A DNA stretch of 64,000 bases from positions 4,327,981 to 4,391,980 of the forward strand of contig NZ_LT629732.1 in assembly GCF_900104745.1 (NCBI RefSeq). The letters are read 5' to 3'. The DNA comes from Actinopolymorpha singaporensis (GTDB lineage Bacteria; Actinomycetota; Actinomycetes; Propionibacteriales; Actinopolymorphaceae). This document shows positions 49,046-58,152 of the stretch, piece after piece. The stretch's first letter is position 1. Every line of letters starts with the position of its first letter. A model generated the notes under the pieces. That model was not told the DNA's origin. It did no database searches and saw only the letters and a list, made by a program, of their open reading frames with translations. Both the position numbers and the translations under genes were made by a program.

Positions 49046-50083
49046 ATGGCGAACACCAGCTCCCGGACCTTGCGGCTGCTCTCCCTGCTCCAGACCCACA
49101 GGTACTGGCCCGGCCGGGAGCTCGCCGACCGGCTCGGAGTGTCCGTACGCACCCTGCGCCGCGACGTCGACCGGCTGCGCGAGCTGGGATACCCGGTGGA
49201 CGCCAACCGCGGCGTCGACGGCGGCTACCAGCTCGCCGCCGGCGCGGCCCTCCCGCCGCTGGTGATCGACGACGAGGAGGCGGTGGCCGTCGCGATCGGC
49301 CTGCGGGTCGCCACCCAGGCTGCGATCGCCGGCATCGAGGAATCCTCGGTCCGGGCACTCACCAAGATCATCCAGGTGATGCCGCCGCGGCTGCGCCGGC
49401 GGGTGGACACCCTGCGCACCGTGACCGTGCCCGCGGCGTGGACCGGCGGGCCCACGGTGGACGCGGAGATCCTCACCACGCTCGCCCAGGCCTGCCGCGA
49501 CGAGGAGCAGCTCAGGTTCTCCTACACCGCGCACGGCGGCGTACGCAGCGAACGCCAGGTGGAGCCGCACCGCCTGGTGTCGCTGGGCCGCCGGTGGTAC
49601 CTCGTGGCCTACGACCTCACCCGGCACGACTGGCGCAGCTTCCGGCTGGACCGGGTGGCCGAACCCCGCAGCACCGCCACCCGCTTCCGCCCCCGTGAAC
49701 TCCCCGCGGAGGACGCGGCGGCGTTCGTCCGGGCCGGGATCGACAACCGCTCGGTCACGACCACCGTGGAGGTGCTCGTCCACGCGGCCGCCGAGGAAGT
49801 TCGCGCCAAGGTCGGGCAGTGGGCGACCGTCGAGGACGCCGGCAAAGTGAACAGCGCGGAGGCCGGCAAGGAGAACAGCGAGGACCGGTGCCGGCTGCTC
49901 ATGACGGTCGACTCCCTGGACTGGGTGCTGATGACGGTCGGCGTGGTGGGTGCGGAGTTCGAGGTCGTCAACCCGCCCGAACTCGCCGAACGCGTACGCG
50001 AGTGGTCGGCGAGGTTCGGCCGGGCCGTGGCCGCCAGGGACGGTGCGAGGACCGCACCGGCGGCTGCTGAGGTCACGGGCTGA
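49046..50083 (+). CDS. WYL domain transcriptional regulator (YafY type)
   Basis: 345 residues. HTH_11 winged helix at 1-60 (RTLRLLSLLQTHRYWPGREL, VSVRTLRRDVDRLRELGY), then the WYL domain at about 140-230 (LRFSYTAHGGVRSERQVEPHRLVSLGRRWYLVAYDL, containing the ligand-binding residues) and a C-terminal WCX-like part. Likely DNA-binding repressor or activator responding to a nucleic acid or small ligand. Divergent from msrB. Its stop overlaps the end of the minus-strand nuclease gene by 11 bp. Confidence 0.93.
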   Translation: MANTSSRTLRLLSLLQTHRYWPGRELADRLGVSVRTLRRDVDRLRELGYPVDANRGVDGGYQLAAGAALPPLVIDDEEAVAVAIGLRVATQAAIAGIEESSVRALTKIIQVMPPRLRRRVDTLRTVTVPAAWTGGPTVDAEILTTLAQACRDEEQLRFSYTAHGGVRSERQVEPHRLVSLGRRWYLVAYDLTRHDWRSFRLDRVAEPRSTATRFRPRELPAEDAAAFVRAGIDNRSVTTTVEVLVHAAAEEVRAKVGQWATVEDAGKVNSAEAGKENSEDRCRLLMTVDSLDWVLMTVGVVGAEFEVVNPPELAERVREWSARFGRAVAARDGARTAPAAAEVTG

Positions 50084-51458
50084 TCCGCACCACCTGGGGG
50101 TCGTGGTCGCTCACCTGGTCGGCGAACTCCGCGTTGACGTGCACCACGTCGTACCCACGCACCCGACCGGAGAAGCCGGCCGACCGGTTGCCGATCAGCG
50201 CCGGGCTCACCAGGATCTGGTCGAGCACCTGGGAGTTGCCGTCGAAGACGTAGGAGTAGCGCTCGGCCGGCGCCAGCAGGGAGGGCAGGCTCACCAGCGT
50301 CCGGCCATCCTGCAGGATCTGGCTCGTACGCGAGAACTCGAAGTCGTTCAGGTCACCGACGACGACCACCTCCGCGTCCGGCTGGACCGCCTGGATCCGT
50401 GCCACGAAGTCGTGCACGAGGCCGGCCTGAGCGTGCCGCTGCGTCTCCGACGAACGCACCGGAGGCTGCCAGCGGCCGAGCAGGGGCTCGTCACCGCCCT
50501 TGGAGTTGAAGTGGTTGGCGATCACGAAGAAGGTCCGGCCGTGGTAAGTGAACTCACCGGCGAGCGGCTTGCGCGAGTCCTGCCACGCCTCGTCGCCGGG
50601 AGCGATCCGGCCGGGGGACAGTGTGAGCGCCGCCTGTCCGTCGGCCCGCCGGACCACGTCCGTGGCGGTCGTCGCGTCACCGCCTGCCCGGTCGACGAAG
50701 GACACCCCGCGGTCGGTGCGGAACAGGAACGCCACCCGGATGTTGCCGGTGGGCTGACCCCCGTCTGCCAAATTGACCGGGGAGATCTGCCGCCACTGGT
50801 ACGCCGGGCCGCCGGCCGCGGCGATCGTGTCGGTCAGCATCCGCAGGGTCCGGTCCGCCGACACCACGCCGTCCGACGTGCAGGTGGACGAAGGACCGTT
50901 GGGGCACTCCGGCCCGGTGTCGTCCTGGACCTCCTCCAGCGCCAGGACGTCGGGTGCGGCGAGGTTGTGCACGATCGTCTCGGCCAGCCGGTCGAACTTC
51001 TCCTGCCGGTCGGTCGGGTCGAGGTTCTCCACGTTGAAGGTCGCGATCGCCACCTCGTTGCGCGCCGGAGCCTGGGTGACCTCCTTGGTCAGCCCACCTG
51101 AACGGACCGTCGGCACAGAGGTGGGATAGACGCGGAAAGTGCCGTAGTCGTAGGAGAGCGGGCCACTCACCGCGCCGGTCAACGTGTCACCGACGTTCGC
51201 GGCCGGCATCTGCTGGTAGACGATCTCGTCGTCGACGGTGAGCCGCGCGGTGTTGGGCGTTTCGTAGGACGCGTAGCGAACGCCGCCGGAACGCGTGCGG
51301 GGTGCACCGGTGGTGCCGGAGGGTACGACGGTCAGCTCGCCGTAGCTGTTGGTCGGCCCGACCACCTGCGCGTCGCGTACCTCCACCAGCATGCTTTCCA
51401 ACGTCTCGTAGAAGTCGATCGCGTCCCGGTCGGGCCGGAAGTCGCCGGTAGTCTCCAC
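50073..51458 (-). CDS. Endonuclease/exonuclease/phosphatase domain, 3' part of a frameshifted secreted nuclease
   Basis: 461 residues from the first in-frame GTG, but the frame is open upstream to about 51500 and continues the preceding fragment. Metal-dependent nuclease/phosphatase motifs: NVENLDPTDR, ALEEVQDDTG, IANHFNSKGGD, VVVGDLNDFEF and the final SDHDPQVVRISP (Asp-His). This matches ExeM/NucH-type extracellular DNases. By itself this piece has no signal peptide, so it would stay inside the cell; the intact gene needs a frame change at about 51501-51511. Confidence 0.85.
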   Translation of the reverse strand: METTGDFRPDRDAIDFYETLESMLVEVRDAQVVGPTNSYGELTVVPSGTTGAPRTRSGGVRYASYETPNTARLTVDDEIVYQQMPAANVGDTLTGAVSGPLSYDYGTFRVYPTSVPTVRSGGLTKEVTQAPARNEVAIATFNVENLDPTDRQEKFDRLAETIVHNLAAPDVLALEEVQDDTGPECPNGPSSTCTSDGVVSADRTLRMLTDTIAAAGGPAYQWRQISPVNLADGGQPTGNIRVAFLFRTDRGVSFVDRAGGDATTATDVVRRADGQAALTLSPGRIAPGDEAWQDSRKPLAGEFTYHGRTFFVIANHFNSKGGDEPLLGRWQPPVRSSETQRHAQAGLVHDFVARIQAVQPDAEVVVVGDLNDFEFSRTSQILQDGRTLVSLPSLLAPAERYSYVFDGNSQVLDQILVSPALIGNRSAGFSGRVRGYDVVHVNAEFADQVSDHDPQVVRISP

Positions 51459-51468
51459 GTCGACCCGG

Positions 51469-52575
51469 TTACCCGAGCCGTCGCCGCTGTCGGCGTTCCA
51501 CCCGGCCGCCCGGCCCGATCAGGACCGGCGCCGGCATCTTCTCCTGTTGCGCGGCCCCGGTGAAGGTCGCGTCGGTGAGTTCGGTGAGGGCGAGGTTGGG
51601 ACCGGTGCGCGAGGACGGACGGAACTCGCTCACCGTCGCGGTGACGGTGACCGTCGTGCCGACCTCGGGCTTCGCGCCGGAGGCGCCGGCGTAGACGTAG
51701 ACGCCGTCGGAGGTCGTGTCGTCGCCGTCGCCCGTCGCGTCCTGCAGCCAGTAGCCGTCGAACTTCTTCGCCGTCACGACGCCGGTGGTGACGACCCGCT
51801 TGCCGTCGAAGGGCGAGCGGTGCCCGGGGCCCTGGACGGCGGGGATGCTTGCCTGCTCGGGCTCGGGACCGGGGCCGGTGCCTCCGCCGGTCTCCCCGGC
51901 GGCGTTGACCGGAGTCGGTGTGCCGGTGGTGAAGTCGGCCGCGTTGTCGTCGGTGTCGCGGGCGTCCGCCGCTCCGCTGCGGGCCGAGGAGGTGGCGTTG
52001 GTGGTGGCCGCCGCGGGGTGTCCCTCGAAGTCGTTGGCGCCGCCGTAGCCGAGGAAGTCCACCACGGCCGGGTCGGTGGCGCAGGCGGCGCCGCAGGAGA
52101 GCACGGTCGTTCCGCGCACCAAGGCGACCTTGCCGGCGGTGCCGGACAGGTTGATCGCGGTGCTGGACTGGTCGGGCCGGGGCAGATCCTGCCCCGTGCC
52201 GGAGCCGGGCGCGAGCCGGACGAGGAATGTGTGTCCGGGCGCCACGCTGCCCTGCAGGTCGACCTTCAGCGATCCGGACCCAGGCGCGGAACCACCGCCG
52301 AGGTTGCCCGACGCAGAGCCGTACTGCAGCGACAACCCGTCCAGCGACGCCGGGGCGCTGCCGTGGTTGGCGAGTTCGACGAAGTCGTTCGTGTACGCCG
52401 CACCGGCGTTGCCACCGCCGCCGTACACCTCGTTCAGCACCAGGTCGGTGGAAGCGGCCGAGGCGGACGTGGTGGTGGCGGCGAGACCGGCGAGGGCGAG
52501 CGCGAGGGTCGATCCCGCGGCCAGCGCCGTTCGAGTTCTGTGTGGAGAGGGGACACGGATGCGCCGACGCGTCAT
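51469..52575 (-). CDS. Lamin-tail (LTD) and OB-fold domains, 5' part of the frameshifted secreted nuclease
   Basis: 368 residues. Signal peptide to about residue 40 (LALALAGLAATTTSASA), LTD domain about 42-170 (LVLNEVYGGGGNAGAAYTND), a low-complexity stretch, then an OB-fold YhcR-type domain at about 250-345 (DGKRVVTTGVVTAKKFDGYW). It ends in an aberrant VERRQRRRLG tail and stop at 51469, just where the endonuclease frame takes over. Probably one secreted nuclease gene, 50073-52575, broken by a frameshift or sequencing error. ATG preceded by GGAG. Confidence 0.85.
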   Translation of the reverse strand: MTRRRIRVPSPHRTRTALAAGSTLALALAGLAATTTSASAASTDLVLNEVYGGGGNAGAAYTNDFVELANHGSAPASLDGLSLQYGSASGNLGGGSAPGSGSLKVDLQGSVAPGHTFLVRLAPGSGTGQDLPRPDQSSTAINLSGTAGKVALVRGTTVLSCGAACATDPAVVDFLGYGGANDFEGHPAAATTNATSSARSGAADARDTDDNAADFTTGTPTPVNAAGETGGGTGPGPEPEQASIPAVQGPGHRSPFDGKRVVTTGVVTAKKFDGYWLQDATGDGDDTTSDGVYVYAGASGAKPEVGTTVTVTATVSEFRPSSRTGPNLALTELTDATFTGAAQQEKMPAPVLIGPGGRVERRQRRRLG

Positions 52576-52836: not shown

Positions 52837-53235
52837 ATGGGGACAAAGGTCGAGCCGGGTGCGCTTGACTCCTTCGCGAAGTACGTCGACGAGCTCGCCG
52901 ACGGATGGAACGACAAGTCGACCTCGGCCGCGGTGCACATGGCCGAGTCGCAGGAGGGCGACTACAACTATCCCCGGCTCGGTGACTTCGGTGGCGCCAA
53001 GACCTTGACGTCCACCTACGAGCAGAAGCGTGCCGACACGGCCAAGTCCTGCGGTGAGCTCTATTCCGCACTGCGCGGCCTGGCCAAGGCCACCCGGAAG
53101 ATCGCCGACCAGTACCGCTCCGCCGAGGCGCTGAACCACGCCAACGTCGGCCAGATCGACAAGATCCTCGGCGAGAACATCAAACCCCCGACCACGGATC
53201 CGAAGAACCCGGACGCCGACCCGCCCAAGGCGTAG
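52837..53235 (+). CDS. WXG100-like helical protein, putative type VII secretion partner
   Basis: 132 residues, predicted mostly helical with two long helices (about 8-35 and 55-100) around ELADGWNDKS, and an ESX-type size. The C-terminus is a short Pro/Asp-rich tail (PPTTDPKNPDADPPKA). There is no signal peptide or membrane helix. A strict W-x-G turn is not visible, so family membership rests on size, helix pattern and the WXG protein directly downstream. ATG 52837 has GAGGACGGTGG upstream. Confidence 0.7.
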   Translation: MGTKVEPGALDSFAKYVDELADGWNDKSTSAAVHMAESQEGDYNYPRLGDFGGAKTLTSTYEQKRADTAKSCGELYSALRGLAKATRKIADQYRSAEALNHANVGQIDKILGENIKPPTTDPKNPDADPPKA

Positions 53236-53283
53236 TGCCACCGACGCGACCGCGCTCCGGATCCACCGACGAGGGAGAGTGTG

Positions 53284-55068
53284 ATGGGGGATTTCCCGAC
53301 CGACGAGTTCGACAAGACCGAACACGCCAAGGTGATCGGCAAGCTGTGGGGTGCCTGGTCCCACATGCCGGAGACCGACACCGACACCGACACCGTTCCG
53401 TCGGCCAGTACGACGTACAACACCAAGACGTTGTGGCAGAACGTCGGTGCGCAGGCCGACACCCTGGCCGACGACCTCGACAAGGCGCTGAAGACGCTTC
53501 TCGACGGTGGCCACGGCAGCTGGGAAGGCGACGCGGCCGAGGAGTTCCGCAAGACGGTCAACCAGATCGTGCGGTTCACCCGCGAGATCGCGCACACCGC
53601 CGACAGCACGTACCCCAAGCCCGGCGGCGAGGGCGAGAAGAGCGACAGCAACTTCGAGACCGCCCACGCGGCCAAGAGTTTCGCCCAGATCTTCACCGAC
53701 GTCGACTCCCAGCTCACGGCCACGCAGAAGGACGAGGCCCTTCCCGCGCCGCCCTACTGGACCACTCCCTACTGGGTGAAGTGGTGGGCCGACTTCGGGT
53801 GGGACTGGACCATCAAGTACGAGATCCGCAAGGGAACCGGGGACGGGAGCATCATCACCCCTCCGGGCGGAAAGGCGTGCTACGACTCCGACGAGATGTC
53901 CGGCGGCGACGACGGTGGAGGCGGCATTTACGCCACCGCACAGGTGAAGGTCGAGCGCAGCACCGACGGTATGTGCCACGGCTTCCTGCCGACGACCGAC
54001 ACCGAGAACAACAAGCTGATGACCTACTTCAAGTTCAACGAGAACGAGGAGAAGACCTGTCGGTCGTCAGCCAAAGCGCTGCTGGAGAAGTACGGCGACG
54101 CCAACAAGGCCATGCCGACCCCGCCGTCGGGCCTGAAGCTGACCTTCAAGTCCGATGACCCCGGCAGGTTCGGCGGTGGCGCCCCCAAGATTCCCGGTGG
54201 CGGCGGTGGCGCCCCCAAGATTCCCGGTGGCGGCGGTGGCGCCCCCAAGATTCCGGGCGGCGGAGGACATCCCCGGATTCCCGATGGCGGCGACCCTCCG
54301 AAGATTCCCGGCGACCGCGACGGCGACGGGATCCCCGACAACAAGGACAGGTACCCCGACGACCCGACCCGTGGCGGTGGCGACCCTCCGAAGATTCCCG
54401 GCGACCGCGACGGCGACGGGATCCCCGACAACAAGGACAGGTACCCCGACGACCCGACCCGTGGCGGAGGTGGCGGGTTCGACCCGAACAGGGACCGCGA
54501 CGGCGACGGGATCCCCGACTACAAGGACAGGTACCCCGACGACCCGACCCGGGGTGGGGGTGGTCGCTTCGACCCGACCAACCTGCCCGACCGCGACGGT
54601 GACGGGATCCCCGACTACAAGGACAGGTACCCCGACGACCCCACCCGCGGTGGCGGCCCGGGTGGAGGGGCGGGCAACGTCGACACCGGTACGAGTACCG
54701 CCCGCGCCGGCGGATTCGGCGGTGGAGGCGGCGGATTCCCCAGCGGCGGGATCCCCGGAGGTGGCGGAGTCCCTGGCAGCGGTGGGATTCCCGGCGGCGG
54801 TGGACTTGCCGGCGGCGGTGTTCCGGCCGGCGCGCCGGCGGGATCACTCAACGTCGGCGGCACCGGAGCCGGCGCGAACGGCTCGGGAGGCCCTGGCGCG
54901 GCAGCCCGTTCCGGCATGGGCGGCATGATGCCGATGATGGGTGGCGGCATGGCCGGCGACGACGGCGGCCAGGAACAGCAGCGCACCACCTGGCTCGACG
55001 AGGACGAGGACGTCTGGGGCGGTAACGACGACGACGCTCCGCCTCCCGTGCTCGGCGGCGGCTTCTAG
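53284..55068 (+). CDS. WXG100-type protein with four calcium-binding TSP3-like repeats and Gly-rich tail
   Basis: 594 residues. About 1-160 is helical with a WEG turn at W80-G82 (GSWEGDAAEEFRKTVNQI), as in type VII secreted WXG100/PPE-like proteins. About 160-290 is a cysteine-containing domain. Three GGGAPKIPG units follow, then four repeats of DRDGDGIPD(N/Y)KDRYPDDPT at 344, 374, 404 and 436; DxDxDGxxD is a calcium-binding loop. A Gly-rich region leads to the end TTWLDEDEDVWGG...PPPVLGG, resembling tails of other actinobacterial ESX-associated proteins. No signal peptide. ATG 53284 preferred (GAGGGAGAG upstream). Confidence 0.8.
   Translation: MGDFPTDEFDKTEHAKVIGKLWGAWSHMPETDTDTDTVPSASTTYNTKTLWQNVGAQADTLADDLDKALKTLLDGGHGSWEGDAAEEFRKTVNQIVRFTREIAHTADSTYPKPGGEGEKSDSNFETAHAAKSFAQIFTDVDSQLTATQKDEALPAPPYWTTPYWVKWWADFGWDWTIKYEIRKGTGDGSIITPPGGKACYDSDEMSGGDDGGGGIYATAQVKVERSTDGMCHGFLPTTDTENNKLMTYFKFNENEEKTCRSSAKALLEKYGDANKAMPTPPSGLKLTFKSDDPGRFGGGAPKIPGGGGGAPKIPGGGGGAPKIPGGGGHPRIPDGGDPPKIPGDRDGDGIPDNKDRYPDDPTRGGGDPPKIPGDRDGDGIPDNKDRYPDDPTRGGGGGFDPNRDRDGDGIPDYKDRYPDDPTRGGGGRFDPTNLPDRDGDGIPDYKDRYPDDPTRGGGPGGGAGNVDTGTSTARAGGFGGGGGGFPSGGIPGGGGVPGSGGIPGGGGLAGGGVPAGAPAGSLNVGGTGAGANGSGGPGAAARSGMGGMMPMMGGGMAGDDGGQEQQRTTWLDEDEDVWGGNDDDAPPPVLGGGF
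54171..54260 (+). repeat. 30-bp tandem repeat, three copies, in the WXG/TSP3 gene
   Basis: Units at 54171-54200, 54201-54230 and 54231-54260 encode GGGAPKIPGG; the first two are identical and the third has a few changes at its end. Confidence 0.92.
54291..54470 (+). repeat. 90-bp direct repeat (two copies, one difference) encoding calcium-binding units
   Basis: 54291-54380 and 54381-54470 differ at one base near their ends. Two further, more diverged copies of the D-rich 57-bp core begin at 54493 and 54589. The near-identity points to recent duplication. Confidence 0.92.
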
Positions 55069-55214: not shown

Positions 55215-56588
55215 TCACCGGCTCCCGGTGAGCACCGGAGTGACCGTGAGCTGTCCGTCCCCTTCGCCGGTGCGGACGACGGCCAGGTGCAGTCCGTCGA
55301 CGTCGCCTTCCACGAAACCGTGCTCGGGTGTCAGGTGGCCGTCGATCCACCGCCGCGCCGCGGTGTACCCCTGCCCGTCAGCGACCTGGCGCAGCACGTC
55401 GCCGTACCGCTGCCTGAGTTCTGCGTCCGTGACCTTCGCCTTGCCGTCGTAGCGGAGCGCGCTCACCGCCACCTCCGTGGCGGAGAACCTCGCCCGGACG
55501 TCGTACGCCGACGACCTGCCGGTGCAACTGCCGGCGTCGCACTCGTAGCCGGCCTTGCCCAGCGAAGCCGCCATGGCGGCCGGGTCCTTCCGGAAGTCGG
55601 CGCCGCGCGGCATTGTCGGCGCGCCCGAACCCGCGAACGACGCGGTGGCCGCCTCCGGATGGGCGCTGAAGGTGACCACACCCCAGCTCAGGCGCGTGGC
55701 CTGATCGACGCCGTTGCCGAACGTGGGCAGTCCGGCGTACTCCTGCCCTAGCAGTGGCCTGCCGACCACCTCGACGACCTCCCGCACCGGGCTGACCGCG
55801 TCACCGGGCGGCCGGAGCTGACCGCGGATGCCGGCAGGCGGCGCGGCGTCGACCTCGACCAGCGCGGCATCGCCGTCGCTTCCGGTCGCGATCCGGACCG
55901 TCAGCCGGGTGCCGTCCGACTCGGTGCGGTAGCACGACCTCACCGTCGTCGGCGAGGACTGCGTGGCGTAACAGGCGAACCCCTTGCCTTCGAGCGGCCG
56001 GGTGAGTTCGGTGGCTGGTACGGGGGCGGCAGCGGGACTGGTCTTCTCCTCGTGCGGAGCGGATCCGCCGAGGCCGCCGCCCAGCACTCCGGCGCCGAAG
56101 AGGTAGCCGCCGACGATCACGGCGGCGAGGAGGACCACGACCAGGCCGCCGCCGAGTAGCCGGCGGCGCTTCGGAGCCGGCTTGGACGGTGCCTGCGGCG
56201 CCTCGGCAGCTTCGTCGGGCCGTGCCGGCCAGCCCGGCGGCGTCCGCGGTGGTCGCTGGTGTCCGGGTGGCGGTCCCTGGGGACCCGGCTGCGGTCCGCC
56301 GAACGGCGCGGCGCCCCGAGGACGAGGTGGGTCCTGCCCGAGTGCCGGCTGGTGGTGCTCCGGACGCCCAGCCTGCCCAGGGGGTGCGGTCCGCCAAGGG
56401 GGTGCGCCCTGCCCGGGGAATCGGCTTTCCCCGCGCTGCTGACCCTGCCCCGGAGGCGGATCCCCCAGGGGCGGTCCGGGCCGGGCGGACGGAGGAGGAC
56501 CGGACCGTCGGGGCGGGCGCTGCGGCCCGGGTGGACCGCCGGCTCGCCGATGGGGACCGGCCGGACGTCCCGGTGGCGGTTGGCTCAT
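55215..56588 (-). CDS. Membrane-anchored protein with Pro-rich cytoplasmic tail and duplicated two-Cys domain
   Basis: 457 residues. Residues 1-150 are Pro/Gly/Arg-rich and disordered. A single helix (LLGGGLVVVLLAAVIVGGYLFGAG) at about 160 puts the remainder outside. The outer part has two similar halves, each starting with a Gly-aromatic-x-Cys element and a second Cys 12-15 residues on (GKGFACYATQ...RSCYR and GKAGYECDAGSCTG). No family recognised. ATG start; a minus-strand CATACT lies 7 nt upstream. Divergent from a paralogue. Confidence 0.82.
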   Translation of the reverse strand: MSQPPPGRPAGPHRRAGGPPGPQRPPRRSGPPPSARPGPPLGDPPPGQGQQRGESRFPGQGAPPWRTAPPGQAGRPEHHQPALGQDPPRPRGAAPFGGPQPGPQGPPPGHQRPPRTPPGWPARPDEAAEAPQAPSKPAPKRRRLLGGGLVVVLLAAVIVGGYLFGAGVLGGGLGGSAPHEEKTSPAAAPVPATELTRPLEGKGFACYATQSSPTTVRSCYRTESDGTRLTVRIATGSDGDAALVEVDAAPPAGIRGQLRPPGDAVSPVREVVEVVGRPLLGQEYAGLPTFGNGVDQATRLSWGVVTFSAHPEAATASFAGSGAPTMPRGADFRKDPAAMAASLGKAGYECDAGSCTGRSSAYDVRARFSATEVAVSALRYDGKAKVTDAELRQRYGDVLRQVADGQGYTAARRWIDGHLTPEHGFVEGDVDGLHLAVVRTGEGDGQLTVTPVLTGSR

Positions 56589-56835
56589 GGGCGCCCAGTA
56601 TGCCGTCCGGCCGTGGTCCGGTTGCGCACCTTCTGCCCGACTTTGACAACGCGCGAACGGCCGGTAAAGGTACCCACAGGTCGGTTCTCGTGCTGCTGGT
56701 GGCACTCCGGGTAACGACGAGGGTCCGGGCGACCTGCTGGTCGATCAACCGTCTGGCTCGACATCGCGGTACGTCCGATCGACCGACATGACGTCCGGTA
56801 CGCCCGACCGACGTGACGAGGGGAGAAGCTGGCCA

Positions 56836-58152
56836 GTGCAACCTCCAGCAGGCCGTCGGCCGGGACCACCAGCACACGGACCGCAGCAGCGACCACCGCA
56901 AGGACCTCGGCAGGGACCGCCGCAGGGACAGCCGTACGGGCAGGACCCAGGACAGCGACAGGGGACACAGGCCGGCCGTCAGGCACCCGGAGGCCCGCCG
57001 CCGGCGAGGCCCGGCGGTCGTACGCACCTGCCGGGCCGGCGCACTCCGCCTCCGACGCCGCGCGGCGGGCGGCGCGCCGGCCGCGTGCTGGGACTGCTCG
57101 GCCTGGTGGTGCTCCTCGTCGCCGTCGCCGGGGGAGCGGTGTGGTTCGGCAAGAACTGGAACCACAGCTCGGCCGAGGACTCTGGTGACTACTACGGCAA
57201 GCAGGCGGACACCCCGCGCGAGGCCCCCACCTACGCCCAACCTGGTGGCACCGGTGGCGCGATGGGACGCGCCCTGCGTGCCAGCCTCACCTCCGCCGGC
57301 TTCTCCTGTACCCGTACCCCCGGAAACCGTTCGGCGCTGCTGACGTGCGTCCTGACCGGGAAGGACCCCGCACCTTTCGTGGCGAAGGTGACCGTGCTGA
57401 CCGGCCGCGAGCAGGTCGTCCGGGTCGACGCCGACGTACGCCCCGACCCGGCCTGGTCGGAGCTGGACTCCGGCGGCGACAGCTTCGAAGGCGGGCCGGA
57501 CGTGTCGGCCGTGGCGTACCGAACGTTCACCGTGCTGGGCCTGGCCGCGATCCCCGACGGTGAGCGCCCCGAGTTCGACAAGGCGATGCGGACGTCACTG
57601 TCGGAGAGGAGCCGGGAGACCGCGAAGACGTCGGTCGCCGACGTCGCCGTGATGGTGCGGACGTCCGGTCCGTCCACCTTCGAACTCAGGCGGGACCAAG
57701 CGAGTGGCCAGCTCGACTACACGCCGGGCCTCAGCCTGGTCACCCCGAAGGAGGTGTCGGCCGCGCTCGGCAAGCAGGGGCTGAGCTGCCGGCGGGCGGA
57801 GGAGTCGATGACCTGTACCCGTGGCGACGTCAAGGTCCACCTGACATTTCCCCGGCCGCGGACCAGGGGCCCCGACCAGAACATCACCGAGCTGACGGCC
57901 ACCGCGCCGGCCGTCGGCGGCGCCGTCAACCCGGAGTTGCGGACCACCGCGCGAACCCTCACCGGGCTGGTGGTCGGGAAGTTCGGCGGTGCCGGGCCGG
58001 CGCAGTCCTGGGCCGGCGGTTGCTTCGGCGACCGGACCGCGGTGACGGTGGCGGGTGCCAGCACGCTGGTCTGCTCACCGCGCCTCACGGGGACGACCGG
58101 CTCCCCTCGGGTCGTGAGCCAGGAGTTTGCCGTCCGCCCGGTGCAGGACTGA
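56836..58152 (+). CDS. Membrane-anchored protein with Pro-rich cytoplasmic tail and duplicated two-Cys domain (paralogue)
   Basis: 438 residues from GTG 56836. Same plan as the divergent gene: Pro/Gln/Gly-rich 80 residues, one helix (VLGLLGLVVLLVAVAGGAVWF), outer part with two Gly-aromatic/hydrophobic-x-Cys...Cys units (SAGFSCTRTP...LLTCVL and KQGLSCRRAEESMTCTRG), plus a C-terminal Cys pair. Function unknown. Start uncertain: GAGGGGAG ends 10 nt before GTG 56836, while ATG 56788 is also in frame. Confidence 0.8.
   Translation: MQPPAGRRPGPPAHGPQQRPPQGPRQGPPQGQPYGQDPGQRQGTQAGRQAPGGPPPARPGGRTHLPGRRTPPPTPRGGRRAGRVLGLLGLVVLLVAVAGGAVWFGKNWNHSSAEDSGDYYGKQADTPREAPTYAQPGGTGGAMGRALRASLTSAGFSCTRTPGNRSALLTCVLTGKDPAPFVAKVTVLTGREQVVRVDADVRPDPAWSELDSGGDSFEGGPDVSAVAYRTFTVLGLAAIPDGERPEFDKAMRTSLSERSRETAKTSVADVAVMVRTSGPSTFELRRDQASGQLDYTPGLSLVTPKEVSAALGKQGLSCRRAEESMTCTRGDVKVHLTFPRPRTRGPDQNITELTATAPAVGGAVNPELRTTARTLTGLVVGKFGGAGPAQSWAGGCFGDRTAVTVAGASTLVCSPRLTGTTGSPRVVSQEFAVRPVQD

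Follow-up and report, generated by a model that had tools for sequence, protein, structure and literature searches.

A candidate orphan ESX substrate pair in Actinopolymorpha singaporensis whose larger member carries TSP3-type calcium loops

Two adjacent forward-strand genes at positions 52837–55068 of the window, which is the whole 64,000-nucleotide stretch of Actinopolymorpha singaporensis DNA analysed here, probably encode an orphan substrate pair of an ESX (T7SSa) secretion system, in which the larger member would gain Ca2+-stiffened linkers outside the cell. From the sequences and structural models, we assign this reading a probability of roughly 70%. The first gene (52837–53235) specifies a 132-residue helical partner, and the second (53284–55068) a 594-residue protein made up of a WxG head, TSP3-type loops, Gly-rich stretches and an acidic, Trp-containing tail. 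The pair is judged to be a variant of ESX substrate pairs and not a new kind of system. The partner gene with its YxxxE motif and a tail motif found across ESX-linked proteins appear to be the strongest evidence for the ESX reading, as explained below.

To our knowledge, little is known about actinobacterial ESX exports outside the mycobacteria. The pair, together with the tail motif that occurs beside ESX loci across the Actinomycetes, offers a straightforward way of recognising candidate ESX substrates by sequence. In addition, calcium is a natural difference between the inside and the outside of a cell, and the loops may provide a directly testable, biophysical switch between the two.

Gene organization and the partner protein

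The larger open reading frame begins with an ATG and is preceded by a Shine–Dalgarno-like stretch (GAGGGAGAG, 53271–53279); the partner gene ends 48 nt upstream of the start. A sigma-70 promoter scan gave no match. The partner gene lies directly upstream of the larger gene in all eight Actinopolymorphaceae genomes, and the two form one unit. The head family and the pair are present in each of these genomes, and the named relatives of the larger protein are from A. rutila, A. pittospori and A. alba. Among the other 290 Propionibacteriales genomes sampled, the head family produced just two short, weak matches.

The partner is predicted to be an EsxB/PE-like helical hairpin. Its AlphaFold2 model is moderately confident (mean pLDDT 74.5) and places helices at residues 7–24 and 54–92. 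Across 10 homologues just five columns are invariant: M1, L20, L75, Y93 and E97. The last two belong to a YxxxE sequence (Y93-R-S-A-E97; 53113–53127, forward strand), the presumed export motif, and the long second helix of the model stops at residue 92, one residue ahead of it. YxxxD/E is the general motif for type VII export and, in the pairs described so far, directly follows the second helix (PMC5311947). When the model was compared with the PDB using Foldseek, the matches were mostly T7SS proteins, with EsxB and PE25 (from PE25–PPE41) at the top and EspB and PE5–PPE4 among the others; probabilities reached 0.98, yet E-values were about 0.5–1. The match to PE25 has a TM score of 0.80 when normalised to PE25. 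Alignment to Esx proteins using hhalign gave a score of 36.4 (P=2e-5), compared with a maximum of 17.0 in 100 column shuffles.

The head of the larger protein

The first-pass annotation had proposed a WXG100-type head around W80-E-G82, and this proposal is supported. The putative helical hairpin (53404–53601, forward strand) comprises helices at residues 41–74 and 83–106 in the AlphaFold2 model (pLDDT about 54–71), and the W80-E-G82 turn (53521–53529) falls between them, with low confidence. Both W80 and G82 are invariant across eight homologues. When residues 1–291 were searched against Pfam, WXG100 (PF06013) was the top match, with an E-value of 6e-4 and 20.6 bits, which is below the curated cut-off of 27.3. 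Proteins of that family are approximately 100 residues in length, whereas here the WXG part forms the head alone of a 594-residue chain. The match to PPE (PF00823) was also below its cut-off of 26 (E=7e-3, 16.8 bits), and the PPE N-terminal motif was not found in the sequence.

Profile–profile alignment of the head family to real Esx proteins, in which the WxG turns align, gave a score of 36.0, whereas 100 column-shuffled controls reached at most 20.6. The Foldseek list for the larger protein is likewise headed by WXG100 structures, with E-values above 0.1; as the full-length, 594-residue model is poor (mean pLDDT 41, pTM 0.26), these matches are a weak indication on their own. By profile, profile–profile and fold comparison, the head is a weak but consistent match to WXG100. 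The middle of the head (residues ~130–287; 53671–54144, forward strand) is modelled, with low confidence, as a helix, a small beta-rich stretch and a second helix, and matches no known family in Pfam. This is followed by a glycine/proline linker of GGGGGAPKIP repeats (54194–54271, forward strand), which was identified in the DNA repeat analysis as family D2.

The ESX machinery of the genome

The genome is a single contig of 6.4 Mb with one ESX locus, at about 1.327–1.340 Mb. This locus encodes EccB, EccE, EccD, EccC (a single protein of 1364 residues), MycP and two WXG100 proteins. Both things on which the ESX reading of the first-pass annotation had been made to depend, a WXG100 or hairpin match in the head and ESX core genes in the genome, were found. 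EccB is present in all eight Actinopolymorphaceae genomes; in one relative (G002:C1:5908441-5909988) the match is in two pieces, possibly as the result of an insertion or a frame break. Local tblastn searches with ESX components found none in the window and none in the loci of the named relatives, and the pair is therefore an orphan. It does not adjoin the ESX locus within the Actinopolymorphaceae and, in the present genome, is about 3 Mb away from it.

This distance, together with a head that does not reach the curated WXG100 thresholds, would fit a surface or cell-wall protein that is not an ESX substrate and is exported by another route. We consider this very improbable, as sequence inspection of the N-terminus revealed no signal-peptide-like hydrophobic stretch, and the YxxxE partner, the WxG head and an ESX-linked tail coincide in the one gene pair.

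The C-terminal tail is linked to ESX loci

The tail surrounds TTWLDEDEDVWGGNDDDAPPPVLGGGF (54979–55065, forward strand) and its TTWLDEDEDVWG end, noted in the first-pass annotation, is kept in all eight family homologues. Of 395 Actinomycetes genomes sampled, 35 contained a match to a degenerate DNA pattern encoding WLxEDExVW; the reversed pattern, which served as a control, matched in none. At each of the 30 loci inspected, the protein is Gly-rich and carries the motif close to its C-terminus. Fourteen loci, picked for the length of available sequence and not for context, were read with 20 kb around each; every one of them has EccB, EccC, EccD, Esx or MycP genes no more than 10 kb away, and, being mutually related, they do not amount to 14 independent events. 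ESX neighbourhoods are estimated to occupy much less than 1% of a genome of this kind. By its tail, and without recourse to the head, the window pair belongs with the ESX-linked proteins.

One of the 14 loci, L090, encodes a tail protein whose WXG100 head scores above the cut-off, together with an upstream partner bearing YRTAE. At some further ESX loci, the last position of the partner motif is not acidic (YENAN, YENAH). A distant pair from Streptomyces, with the tail DYLVEDEETW, is found inside an ESX cluster with the order eccB-esx-esx-mycP-partner-WXG/tail protein-mycP. The linkers of ESX-linked tail proteins can be repetitive: those of L053 and L092 contain long DPDTGQPFPVDPDTGLPYNPDTGLP repeats, and that of L034 contains Asn/Leu/Gly/Asp repeats of the LNDLNNGLND type.

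Alternatively, the larger protein could be ESX-associated without being exported, as a cytosolic chaperone or adaptor similar to EspK. In EspK, too, a WxG head is joined to a long linker of low complexity, and it is described as having an N-terminal WxG region followed by an unstructured linker (PMC9811218). The head's similarity to known substrates, which is only weak, would allow this. However, the larger protein comes with a dedicated YxxxE partner, in the manner of substrates, and the near-invariant calcium ligands described below would be difficult to account for at the sub-micromolar Ca2+ of the cytosol. Furthermore, no C-terminal globular chaperone domain is seen, only Gly-rich sequence and the tail. 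A non-exported role is accordingly rather unlikely, and export as an ESX substrate is preferred.

Other functions were also considered. A C-terminal toxin was rejected, as the last 134 residues are Gly-rich sequence plus tail, with no Pfam match at E<=5. A role in anti-phage defence was rejected when PADLOC gave no match.

The calcium-type loops

The larger protein carries four DRDGDGIPDxKDRYPDDPT units spaced 30, 30 and 32 residues apart. These units, like the Gly-rich stretches, had been listed in the first-pass annotation and are confirmed in the sequence. Loops 1 and 2 (both DRDGDGIPDNKDRYPDDPT) are encoded at 54313–54369 and 54403–54459 and start at residues 344 and 374; loops 3 and 4 (both DRDGDGIPDYKDRYPDDPT) are encoded at 54493–54549 and 54589–54645 and start at residues 404 and 436, all on the forward strand. 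The protein has four matches to an EF-hand/TSP3-type pattern, D-x-[DN]-x-[DN]-G-x-x-D-x-x-[DE]. As 5000 shuffles that preserved composition gave 0.005 matches on average, the pattern is not due to chance. A degenerate DNA version of the pattern has seven matches in the whole 6.4 Mb genome, four of which are within this gene.

The first-pass annotation had described the loops as TSP3/dockerin-like, and only the first half of that description stands. No dockerin match was obtained from Pfam at E<=5. By sequence, the loops appear closest to TSP3: all four have the DxDxDGxxDxxD ligand pattern, with ligand positions kept in relatives, and the best solved relative of the repeat block is an OmpA family protein (PDB 5wtl, E=1e-8). 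Of the two Pfam families for TSP3 repeats (PF02412/PF18884), TSP3_bac was matched by the repeat block at E=9e-5 (22.7 bits) and TSP_3 at E=2e-3 (18.2 bits), both of which are under the curated cut-off of 25.

Conservation was scored on 25 loop copies from eight genomes. Positions 1, 5 and 9 are D in every copy, position 3 is D or N in every copy, and position 12 is D in 23; G6 and P8 are fixed, and positions 2, 10 and 11 vary. Fixed ligand positions with variation elsewhere are the pattern expected under selection on calcium ligands. The number of loops (2–4) and the linkers between them differ among relatives. Flexible Gly linkers separate the loops; in only one relative (L014) do they follow one another directly, every 13 residues, as in a TSP3 array.

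At the DNA level the block is built from a 90-nt unit that is present four times, at intervals of 90, 90 and 96 nt. Units 1 and 2 share 99% identity and, therefore, the tandem duplication is recent. It follows that duplication contributed to the block, and this, with the varying number of loops, would fit a protein that is exported by ESX but has D-rich units that are independent of calcium, forming an acidic, repetitive, low-complexity spacer. Such a spacer is unlikely, in view of the ligand, Gly and Pro positions that are fixed or nearly so while others vary, the contiguous array of L014 and the occurrence of such loops in an unrelated protein from an ESX locus.

That unrelated protein (L092:6794-10117) is a 1107-residue tail protein from the ESX locus of another family. 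It has two TSP3-type loops (DADNDGVPDWLE and DSDGDGTPDWME) straight behind its N-terminal part, compared with 0.0075 expected. Behind the loops are long PDTGLP-type repeats, and these are followed by a WLSEDERVWG tail. Because of this protein, the combination of loops and ESX-linked tail probably arose more than once. Separately, a tail protein from another family (L049:715-1569, reverse strand; family f22, genus g55) has one TSP3-like loop, DSDLDGEYDDYD. Overall, the calcium-loop pattern is present in only 2 of the 26 tail ORFs examined outside the Actinopolymorphaceae. Conversely, among TSP3 proteins of other Actinomycetes, found using PF18884, no inspected ORF resembled a WXG head with a tail like TTWLDEDEDVWG.

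A model for export and calcium-dependent stiffening

In the proposed mechanism, the partner and the large protein would form a heterodimer: the hairpin of the former would pack onto the WxG hairpin of the latter, giving a four-helix bundle that resembles those of PE/PPE or Esx pairs. The YxxxE of the partner and the WxG of the large protein would then constitute a bipartite export signal, to be read by EccC of the single, distant ESX locus. At cytosolic calcium levels the four-loop linker would be disordered and may cross the membrane in this export-competent state. Once in millimolar extracellular Ca2+, each loop would bind one ion and become a short, rigid, TSP3-like segment, with Gly-rich sequences acting as hinges between the rigid segments. 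The loops would probably stay unfolded until they have left the cell, and the Gly-rich stretches and acidic Trp tail would be held outside on a calcium-stiffened spacer. A role for the protein as a surface spacer is a guess.

A folding ratchet that depends on outside Ca2+ has been proposed for the RTX proteins of type I systems. By extension, extracellular Ca2+ could drive or lock export of the large protein, with loop folding outside acting as the ratchet, and the WLxEDExVWG tail could be a class-wide, ESX-specific element that is recognised by the machinery or by surface partners. We regard this extension as speculative and doubtful.

Relation to known systems

The closest counterparts are the Gly-rich, WXG/PPE-like proteins encoded in ESX loci of other Actinomycetes, which end in the same kind of tail (WLxEDExVWG, or DYLVEDEETW in Streptomyces). 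They share a helical head where one is recognisable, an upstream helical partner where examined, and a Gly-rich body. Unlike the window protein, they are encoded inside ESX loci, and 24 of the 26 tail ORFs are without the calcium-loop pattern. The mycobacterial PE/PPE pairs, such as PE25–PPE41, and EspB are also similar, in that the small protein bears YxxxD/E and its large partner WxG; in EspB both signals are carried in one chain (PMC9811218). The window pair differs from PE/PPE pairs in having neither a PE nor a PPE N-terminal motif, and its Pfam PPE match is under the cut-off.

TelC and PE_PGRS proteins are precedents for calcium-using, T7SS-related proteins. The mycobacterial PE_PGRS proteins are PE-type, with calcium-binding, Gly-rich repeats (PMC8430768). 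These are RTX-like GGXGXD/NXUX repeats joined to a PE head, unlike the TSP3-type DxDxDGxxDxxD loops of the window protein. TelC is an LXG toxin of Streptococcus intermedius that is exported by a T7SS and binds Ca2+ using an Asp-rich motif (PMC5555719); there, the ion is in an enzyme active site, in contrast to the window protein with its lack of a recognised catalytic domain. The OmpA family protein 5wtl shares DTDGDGIPDxxD loops, which in that case are part of an outer-membrane protein, whereas the window loops follow a WXG head and are separated by Gly linkers. The first-pass annotation knew of no described ESX substrate with this build, and open-access literature on TSP3 with type VII secretion, or on Actinopolymorpha with type VII secretion, likewise yielded no description, which, for open-access sources only, is weak evidence.

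Neighbouring genes

Two divergent, Pro-rich proteins adjoin the pair (55215–56705, reverse strand, and 56788–58152, forward strand). Each has an apparent single membrane segment and is without a Pfam match, and the former adjoins the pair in several relatives as well. On the other side, a reverse-strand gene for a protein with lamin-tail and endonuclease/exonuclease/phosphatase domains (50073–52575) is in two frames, of 368 and 461 residues. Its A. rutila homologue (L028) is one intact frame, and the split is an apparent frameshift, due either to a pseudogene or to a sequencing error.
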